Of a DNA stretch of 64,000 nt, positions 4-2,406 are shown in pieces. Numbering within the stretch: the first letter of the stretch is position 1; every line of letters starts with the position of its first letter. The notes beneath the pieces are model-generated. The model ran no database searches, was not told where the DNA came from, and worked only from the letters and a program-made list of their open reading frames with translations. The position numbers and the translations under genes are program-made. Source of the stretch: Acidobacteriota bacterium (GTDB taxonomy: Bacteria > Acidobacteriota > Holophagae > Holophagales > Holophagaceae); NCBI GenBank assembly GCA_016192145.1, contig JACPUT010000002.1, forward strand, positions 1 through 64,000, in the 5' to 3' direction.

Positions 4-119
4 TCGTCGCGACTTTACCCCAAGGGTCACACCCGTTCCCATCCCGAACACGGCAGTTAAGACTTGGAGGGCCGATGATACTGCGTTTTTAAGCGTGGAA
101 AAGTAGGTCGTTGCGACGT
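4..119 (+). rRNA. rrf: 5S ribosomal RNA
   Basis: The conserved 5S core GGTCACACCCGTTCCCATCC is present, followed by the GAACACGGCAGTTAAG block and a closing GTAGGTCG segment. The 5' arm at 5-13 (cgtcgcgac) pairs with the 3' arm at 110-118 (gttgcgacg), forming helix I, so the molecule looks essentially complete at about 115 nt. It is probably the last gene of an rRNA operon whose 16S and 23S lie left of the window. A terminator follows directly. Confidence 0.95.
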
Positions 120-130
120 TAAAATCTGAA

Positions 131-161
131 AGGCCCCTGAGGAATACTCAGGGGCTTTTTT
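131..161 (+). terminator. Rho-independent terminator of the rRNA operon
   Basis: An 8-bp stem gcccctga/tcaggggc (133-140 with 148-155) and a 7-nt loop are followed by six T residues. It lies 12 nt after the 5S rRNA and would end the rrn transcript. Confidence 0.9.
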
Positions 162-230: not shown

Positions 231-438
231 TACGGTCGCCGAACTACGACCCAGCCCGCCCCTTATGCTCAACCGTGTGGGGCCCCGATCCGCGGAGTCC
301 ACTGGACTCCGCGGAACGACCCACATCGGTTTCGCGGTCGCCGAACTACGACCCAGCCGGGCGCTTATGCTCAGCCGCGTGGGGGCCCGACGGTGGAAGT
401 CCACTGGACTTCCACCGTCGACCCACGCGGGCTTCGCC
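231..438. repeat. Two tandem ~102-bp structured repeats with variable hairpins
   Basis: Two copies begin with the same 23-base segment (ggtcgccgaactacgaccca and three further bases) at 234 and 336, a period of 102. Each copy ends in a perfect hairpin with the shared apex gtcc-act-ggac. Copy 1 has an 11-bp stem (290-300 with 304-314). Copy 2 has a 15-bp stem (388-402 with 406-420) of different sequence. Flanking outer arms also pair in each copy (tgtggg/cccaca versus cgtggg/cccacg). No protein of recognisable type is encoded. Function unknown. Confidence 0.8.
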
Positions 439-446: not shown

Positions 447-492
447 GTAATGCCCCCGAAGCCGGGGGCTTCCTGCATTTGTGGAGATCTTC

Positions 493-2406
493 ATGTCCAT
501 TGCCGTGCGCCTTCCCGACGATTCCCTCCGGCAGCTGCCCGAGGGGGCGACCGGGACTGACCTGGCCGCAGGCATCGGTCCCCGCCTTCTGGAGGCGGCG
601 CTGGCCATCAAGCAGGACGGGCAGTTGACCGATCTGAAGGCTCCCCTGCGGGATGGAGCGAAGATCGAGATCCTCACGGCCAAGAACGAGGACAGCCTTG
701 AGCTGATCCGGCACAGCACGGCGCACCTGCTGGCCCATGCGGTGAAGCGCCTCTATCCCAATGCGCGGGTGGGCATCGGCCCCACCATCGAAGACGGGTT
801 CTACTACGACTTCTGGGTGGAGAAGCCCTTCACACCCGAGGATTTGCCCGTCATTGAAGCGGAGATGAAGAAGATCGTCGCCGAAGGCATCGAAGTGGTG
901 CGCGAGGACTTGGATCGGGACGCCGCCATCGCGCGGTTCAACGAGATGGGCGAGCCCCTGAAGGTGGAAGTGGTCAGCGGCATCCCCCAGGGAGACCGCA
1001 TCAGCGGCTACCGCCAGGGAGATTTCTACGATCTCTGCCGCGGGCCCCACATCCCCAATACCAACAAGCTGAAGGCCTTCAAGCTCCTGAGCATCGCGGG
1101 CGCTTATTGGAAGGGCGACGAGAAGAATCAGATGCTCTCGCGCATCTACGGCACCGCTTTTCATTCGCAAAGGGATCTGGACGAGCACCTCCAGCGCCTG
1201 GAAGAAGCCAAGCAGCGCGATCACCGCAAGCTGGGCAAGGAGCTGGACCTGTTCTCCTTCCACCCCCAAGCGCCGGCCTCACCCTTCTTCCATCCCAAGG
1301 GCACGGTGGTCTACAACGCGCTCGTGGACTACATCCGCGAGCTGTACAACAAATACGACTACAAGGAAGTGATCACGCCGCAAATCCTCGACGTATCGCT
1401 GTGGAAGACCTCCGGCCACTACGACAACTACGCGGAGAACATGTACTTCACCACCGCCGAAGAGCGGGAGTACGCGGTGAAGCCCATGAACTGCCCAGGT
1501 CATTGCGTGCTCTTCGGCAGCACCAAGCACAGCTACCGGGATCTGCCCTTGCGCATCGCCGACTTCGGCCGTCTGCACCGCTACGAGCGGAGCGGTGTGA
1601 CCCACGGCCTCACGCGCGTCCGCACCTTCTGCCAGGACGATGCGCACCTCTTCTGCGCCCCCGATCAGATCAAGGCCGAGATGGCCTCCTTCCTGGACCT
1701 CCTGAAGGAGGTCTATGACACCTTCGCCTTCACGGAGATGCGCGTCGCCCTGAGCACCCGGCCCGAGAAGCGCTTGGGTTCCGATGAGATCTGGGACGCC
1801 GCCGAAGGCGCCCTGGCCGAAGCTCTCACCGAGGCGGGTGTCCCATTCAAGCTGAACCCGGGTGAAGGCGCCTTCTATGGCCCCAAGATCGAGTTCCAGG
1901 TGCTGGACGCCCTCAAGCGGCCCTGGCAGCTGGGCACCCTCCAGGTGGATTACATGCTCCCGGAGCGCTTCGACCTGAACTACACGAAGCCCGATGGCAC
2001 CGAAGGCCGCCCCGTGATGCTGCACCGGGCCATCCTCGGCAGCCTGGAGCGCTTCTTCGGAATCCTGGTGGAGCACTGTGCCGGAGCCTTCCCGGCCTGG
2101 CTGGCCCCCGTCCAGGTGGCGGTCCTCCCCATCACGGACCGGGTGGCCCCCTTTGCCGAGGAAGTGGGCGCCAAGCTCCGGGCCGCCGGCTTCCGGGTGG
2201 ACCTGGACCTCCGCAACGAGAAGGTGAACGCCAAGATCCGTGAGCATCAGCTTCGTAAAGTGCCGTATATGCTCGTTTTGGGTGATCGCGAGGCCGAAGC
2301 GGGCTCCGTGTCCGTCCGCCACCGCACCCAGGGCGACCTGGGGGTGCAGACCCTGGAGGCCTTCCTGGCCTCCTTCCAGGCCGAGGTGGCGGAACGCCGC
2401 CGCTGA
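493..2406 (+). CDS. thrS: Threonine--tRNA ligase
   Basis: Charges tRNA-Thr in the cytoplasm. The 637-aa product has the normal full layout: an N-terminal TGS domain (about 1-62), the editing domain with HSTAHLLAH as zinc/editing histidines, the class II catalytic core with MNCPGH and a RYERSGV motif 2, and a C-terminal anticodon-binding domain starting near VQVAVLPI. I chose ATG 493 over an in-frame GTG at 481 because a GGAG at 482-485 sits 7 nt upstream of the ATG. It is the first gene of a thrS-infC-rpmI-rplT-pheST run, the classical order in many bacteria. Confidence 0.96.
   Translation: MSIAVRLPDDSLRQLPEGATGTDLAAGIGPRLLEAALAIKQDGQLTDLKAPLRDGAKIEILTAKNEDSLELIRHSTAHLLAHAVKRLYPNARVGIGPTIEDGFYYDFWVEKPFTPEDLPVIEAEMKKIVAEGIEVVREDLDRDAAIARFNEMGEPLKVEVVSGIPQGDRISGYRQGDFYDLCRGPHIPNTNKLKAFKLLSIAGAYWKGDEKNQMLSRIYGTAFHSQRDLDEHLQRLEEAKQRDHRKLGKELDLFSFHPQAPASPFFHPKGTVVYNALVDYIRELYNKYDYKEVITPQILDVSLWKTSGHYDNYAENMYFTTAEEREYAVKPMNCPGHCVLFGSTKHSYRDLPLRIADFGRLHRYERSGVTHGLTRVRTFCQDDAHLFCAPDQIKAEMASFLDLLKEVYDTFAFTEMRVALSTRPEKRLGSDEIWDAAEGALAEALTEAGVPFKLNPGEGAFYGPKIEFQVLDALKRPWQLGTLQVDYMLPERFDLNYTKPDGTEGRPVMLHRAILGSLERFFGILVEHCAGAFPAWLAPVQVAVLPITDRVAPFAEEVGAKLRAAGFRVDLDLRNEKVNAKIREHQLRKVPYMLVLGDREAEAGSVSVRHRTQGDLGVQTLEAFLASFQAEVAERRR

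Follow-up and report, generated by a model that had tools for sequence, protein, structure and literature searches.

The window, a stretch of 64 000 nucleotides from a Holophagaceae (Acidobacteriota) genome, carries two tandem repeat units between the 5S rRNA gene and thrS, downstream of the rRNA operon terminator-like hairpin (Table 1), as the preliminary description had placed them. The units are 102-bp direct repeats (233–334 and 335–436), 77% identical to each other, and in each of them a 23-bp segment common to both precedes an imperfect hairpin element (E) of ~75 nt. According to covariance model R1, the structured parts span ~261–335 and ~363–437, and the 23-bp segment upstream of them is a separate feature. 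The 22-mer GTCGCCGAACTACGACCCAGCC is found in the window only at 235–256 and 337–358, with 0 occurrences expected. Each E comprises an outer arm, a constant GTGGGGNCCC/GACCCAC block, an inner stem and the loop ACT, the latter within GTCC-ACT-GGAC apices located at 297–307 and 399–409. The outer arms changed together, being TGTGGG/CCCACA in copy 1 and CGTGGG/CCCACG in copy 2. The repeats, their common loop and the coupled outer arms had all been reported from the sequence and agree with our measurements; of the two reported inner stem lengths, 15 bp was correct for copy 2, whereas copy 1 measures 12 bp rather than 11 bp. Between the two units, the segment is identical at 25 out of 26 positions, the inner hairpin at 23 out of 36 and the right outer arm at 11 out of 15, and both versions pair. 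Between E2 and the thrS start, there is also a GC-rich hairpin, GCCCCCGAAGCCGGGGGC, at window positions 448–471, which lies outside E and could have an effect on thrS initiation.

Table 1. Features of the 5S–thrS locus in the window
Feature	Position	Strand	Basis and details
5S rRNA gene (left neighbor)	5–119	+	Rfam RF00001, 87.2 bits
rRNA operon terminator-like hairpin with T-run	129–159	+	inverted repeat I4
Shared 23-bp segment, first copy	233–258	+	25/26 identical to 335–360; unique in window
Element copy 1 (E1)	261–335	+	model R1, 73.5 bits, E-value 4e-17; folded as single-stranded DNA, z = −5.9
E1 parts			outer arm AACCGTGTGGGG / CCCACATCGGTT; inner 12-bp stem TCCGCGGAGTCC / GGACTCCGCGGA; loop ACT
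Shared 23-bp segment, second copy	335–360	+	begins at the right end of E1 (TTCGC)
Element copy 2 (E2)	363–437	+	model R1, 63.6 bits, E-value 3e-14; folded as single-stranded DNA, z = −7.2
E2 parts			outer arm CCGCGTGGGG / CCCACGCGG; inner 15-bp stem CGACGGTGGAAGTCC / GGACTTCCACCGTCG; loop ACT
thrS, threonyl-tRNA synthetase (right neighbor), ATG at 493	493–2406	+	ORF; name from the preliminary description; many relatives have DNA homologues adjoining a 5S gene

In an Rfam scan of the locus, the 5S gene alone exceeded the gathering score; E had no match, and nothing relevant appeared at a relaxed threshold, the matches to microRNA precursors being artefacts of a plain hairpin. Since E belongs to no Rfam family at the gathering score, it is neither a T-box, consistent with the preliminary description, nor a known riboswitch. 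Its location in the thrS upstream region and the strong structure of the stretch 120–500 (folding energy z = −10 versus shuffles) would suit a cis-acting RNA leader regulating thrS, such as a tandem aptamer or attenuator, which was one of the options originally proposed. Many relatives likewise have thrS after the 5S gene, and the gap between the two genes can be read in 28 of them, whose stored DNA spans it. E is missing from all 28 gaps, which comprise only a short promoter region and a terminator-like hairpin, implying that E at thrS is specific to the lineage of the window, as far as sampled, and contradicting the leader as a conserved function. Moreover, copies of the same E adjoin numerous unrelated genes, in most cases on their downstream side. 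Together with the lack of an Rfam match, this makes a thrS leader highly improbable, and the hairpins would not be expected to have a conserved role in thrS control.

A BLAST search detected no further full copy in the host and returned matches to the hairpin in relatives; a simple pattern run over 77 genomes of the host's family matched in 36, the core being exactly 48 bp in most copies. Model R1, built from 73 copies, identifies E in 59 out of 77 genomes of this bacterial family, representing 7 out of 11 genera, with 1–24 copies above threshold per carrier genome, a lower bound, scoring having been limited to the top candidates of each genome. Across this dispersed family, E is ~70–75 bp long and consists of an outer arm, a constant GTGGGG-CCCC / GACCCAC block, a hypervariable inner stem and a 3-nt loop. 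The host itself has three copies, the third of which (L273, host contig C4:5205–5280) adjoins tRNA genes and has the shorter CGACCCAGCC upstream, as the window copies do, so that part of the 23-bp segment may belong to E. Further copies beyond the locus, which the preliminary description suggested seeking, thus exist. For the shared segment, a 16-mer search of a public genome collection gave 39 matches over unrelated phyla, which is chance level, and the 16-mer matches in viral contigs were likewise due to chance. Among a spread of 396 genomes of the phylum, 31 are carriers, all from the host's family, and no E was found in the sampled phylum genomes outside it; phage records, plasmid records and viral contigs yielded no copies either. 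An assembly artefact was rejected because single-contig genomes (G004, G043, G053) carry E together with duplications. In one genome (G038), a copy (L037) is located inside an rRNA operon between 16S and tRNA-Ala, with an identical match on a second contig. We found no report of such repeats in this bacterial group in the open literature, and this family of tiny protein-free elements has apparently not been described.

Covariation among the aligned copies was scored on a named structure of 27 stem pairs, 21 of which have changes on both sides. Cells with both sides changed number 213, compared with 54.6 for shuffled data (0/500), and the signal is lost once the partner columns are slid. Of 653 inner-stem cells, 614 are Watson-Crick, 11 are G-U and 28 are mismatched. 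In 56 nearest-neighbor comparisons, which are not fully independent, the inner stem displays 51 double Watson-Crick changes, whereas single changes number 4 to G-U and 10 to a mismatch. Copies L141 and L177, which two genomes carry at one and the same tmRNA-type site, differ at four alignment positions that constitute two adjacent, fully compensated pairs. Furthermore, a genome from the host's genus (G001) has two 184-bp tandem units in which the flanks (26/28 and 79/83) and constant blocks (25/25) are nearly or fully identical, whereas the variable arms are identical at only 4/9, 18/29 and 4/10 positions, and all of them pair. The original claim was right in that the pairing behaves as one unit, whether selected or generated, and relatives do have further copies and strong covariation. 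However, the predominance of double Watson-Crick changes over changes to G-U (51 versus 4) argues for fold-back copying at the DNA level more than for classic RNA selection, and the near absence of G-U intermediates, which suggests joint change of both sides at the DNA level, means that covariation alone is no proof of RNA-level selection. Matched change with hardly any G-U is a prediction of template switching at a DNA hairpin, a process reported to make multibase compensatory changes in stems (PMC8794818). In most copies, the stem also retains a symmetric 3x3 mismatch, TYC/TYC (alignment A1, columns 31–33 / 59–61), which is absent from E1 and E2. Its persistence, which pure fold-back correction would erase, probably reflects some selection on shape.

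Both this conserved mismatch and the constant block would be accounted for if E were a functional RNA 3′-end element, involved in processing, stability or termination, with RNA pairing under selection and the duplications described below being secondary. Copies are indeed found beside tRNA, tmRNA and SRP RNA genes, and where a left gene was called (56 copies), E is located just past its sense 3′ end in 44 cases, making an RNA 3′-end function possible. It is at odds, however, with the scarcity of G-U pairs in the inner stem, with some copies at gene starts (response regulator, L186) and with the patchy presence of E at orthologous sites. In addition, a T-run follows E in only 1 out of 75 copies, for which reason an intrinsic terminator was rejected. 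We consider an RNA 3′-end element unlikely.

The most informative feature of E, absent from the preliminary description, is the duplication of host gene ends. In 47 out of 75 copies, host DNA is directly duplicated from the right end of E, typically after GACCCACATGGTCGCGA, compared to 14 out of 1381 (1%) mismatched controls. The right end is thus fixed, whereas the length of the duplication (X) varies from 14 to >200 bp; the exact examples include lengths of 54–110 bp and extend to 214 bp. The cleanest duplications, of 54, 55, 108 and 110 bp, reach the left end of E. The other 28 copies have no duplication, perhaps due to decay. X usually covers a gene edge, including that of groL (recognized from sequence), the 3′ ends of sprT-like, asparaginase, glutaredoxin, queuosine-synthesis and FtsX-type permease genes, the start of a response regulator gene and the edges of tRNA, tmRNA and SRP RNA genes. 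The sites where X begins were also inspected by eye for a target motif; a T precedes X at about half of them, which is not convincing. The resulting arrangements are X-E-X or [X-E]n, the window being [X-E]2 between the 5S terminator and thrS. Here, the 23-bp segment may be either a host-derived duplication or the upstream part of a subtype-A unit. Its position, beginning at the TTCGC end of E1, fits X and makes it a candidate duplication; no third X follows E2, and X in the window is not part of a recognizable gene.

Intact, truncated or remnant, nested and empty alleles are all found at the sprT-like site among the 30 genomes compared. The right copy of X in G041 runs into downstream DNA resembling that of the empty genome G027. 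Recombinational loss between two X copies looks the same as never having gained E, so that gain and loss are not fully separable at such sites. Several copies at this site are remnants of E that break off at the apex or partway along an arm (L318, L323, L332 and L334), as expected for hairpin deletion, and in one genome (L330 in G055) a second, unrelated-looking palindrome is nested in E. The duplications might also be purely local, produced when an old immobile palindrome causes slippage, so that the host DNA in front of it is copied again. Many arrays have the form [X-E][X-E] or contain a truncated second E (L116, L118, L119, L188, L289, L300), and the window itself is such an [X-E][X-E] pair. 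However, in G041, G042 and G043 the right X of the sprT-like site leads into downstream sequence that appears native, and a second E is missing there; E is also found at many unrelated loci, and visual inspection of exact junctions revealed no microhomology. Local tandem duplication alone is thus an improbable explanation.

Overall, we favor, with a probability of roughly 0.6, the interpretation of E as a family-specific, non-autonomous and protein-free mobile palindrome that is inserted or amplified together with adjoining host DNA and whose arms are kept complementary by template switching. Of the options listed in the preliminary description, the 'DNA element' is the one that agrees with this interpretation. 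E is located at gene edges and is present at some orthologous sites and absent from others; we infer its mobility from this site polymorphism and from its dispersal. E would enter as folded DNA, with or before the copying of adjoining host DNA, and this copying would leave the gene edge intact beside E. Arrays would then grow and shrink through recombination between X copies. Replication stalled at the hairpin would copy one arm from the other, and since such template switching alters both sides of a pair at once, the arms would remain complementary. Against mobility, same-site copies shared by several species may be ancient and have been passed on vertically, their X copies being homogenized by gene conversion. 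Y1 transposase genes (PF01797) are found in 13 out of 77 genomes, do not track E and are absent from the host and most carriers; similarly, reverse transcriptase genes (PF00078) do not track E and are absent from the host and many carriers. This distribution does not fit either enzyme as the driver, and it speaks against E as a retroelement-derived insertion, although past activity is possible. More tentatively, E might represent an unrecognized class of mobile DNA, in which a folded hairpin inserts at gene edges with one fixed end, copies 14 to >200 bp of the target gene while leaving the gene intact, and has its arms rewritten pairwise by template switching. We know of no bacterial transposition mechanism that matches variable-length duplication with one fixed end, and this property may be due to an as yet unnamed enzyme. 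Furthermore, E provides a natural data set of near-identical DNA palindromes differing by fully compensated base-pair changes, in which it can be tested how frequently a single mutational step produces a compensatory change and whether covariation by itself proves a functional RNA.

Among known systems, REPs and REPINs, which typically exceed 100 copies per genome, resemble E in being short, dispersed, non-coding palindromes located mostly downstream of genes (44/56 for E). E is larger (~70–75 bp), low-copy even if the 1–24 copies per genome are a lower bound, and hypervariable in its stems. It also lacks the REP tag, GTAG being present near the hairpin base in 0/73 copies and CGTC in 1/73, and the RAYT transposase (PF01797) is missing from the host and most carriers. 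Location mostly just downstream of genes has been described for REPs (PMC3733652). E has long direct duplications of host DNA at its end, whereas larger target duplications are reportedly not a product of IS200/IS605-type transposition (PMC2817692). It is thus very unlikely that E is a GTAG/CGTC-class REP spread by RAYT, and the REP family suggested earlier does not apply in the strict sense. Like MITEs, E is small, repeated, non-autonomous and flanked by direct repeats. The target duplications of MITEs, however, are short and of fixed length, whereas those of E range from 14 to >200 bp with only the right end fixed, and no parent insertion sequence was found among the Y1 transposase and reverse transcriptase families searched. 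With integron attC sites, E shares a conserved fold with variable sequence, an imperfect palindrome with conserved unpaired internal positions, either strand of which folds, and arrays of units with hairpins ([X-E]n). These properties would be compatible with gene-edge cassettes moved by a tyrosine recombinase acting on a folded single-strand site. Yet the attC boxes, R″ (RYYYAAC) and R′ (GTTRRRY), never co-occur in E (0/73 on either strand), and the repeated units are duplicates of the resident gene edge, not different cassettes, so that an attC-like site also appears very unlikely. Finally, template-switch (quasipalindrome) hairpins resemble E in their perfect stems and in double compensatory changes arising in one replication event (PMC8794818), but there the hairpins belong to RNA genes, whereas here they constitute a dispersed element family.
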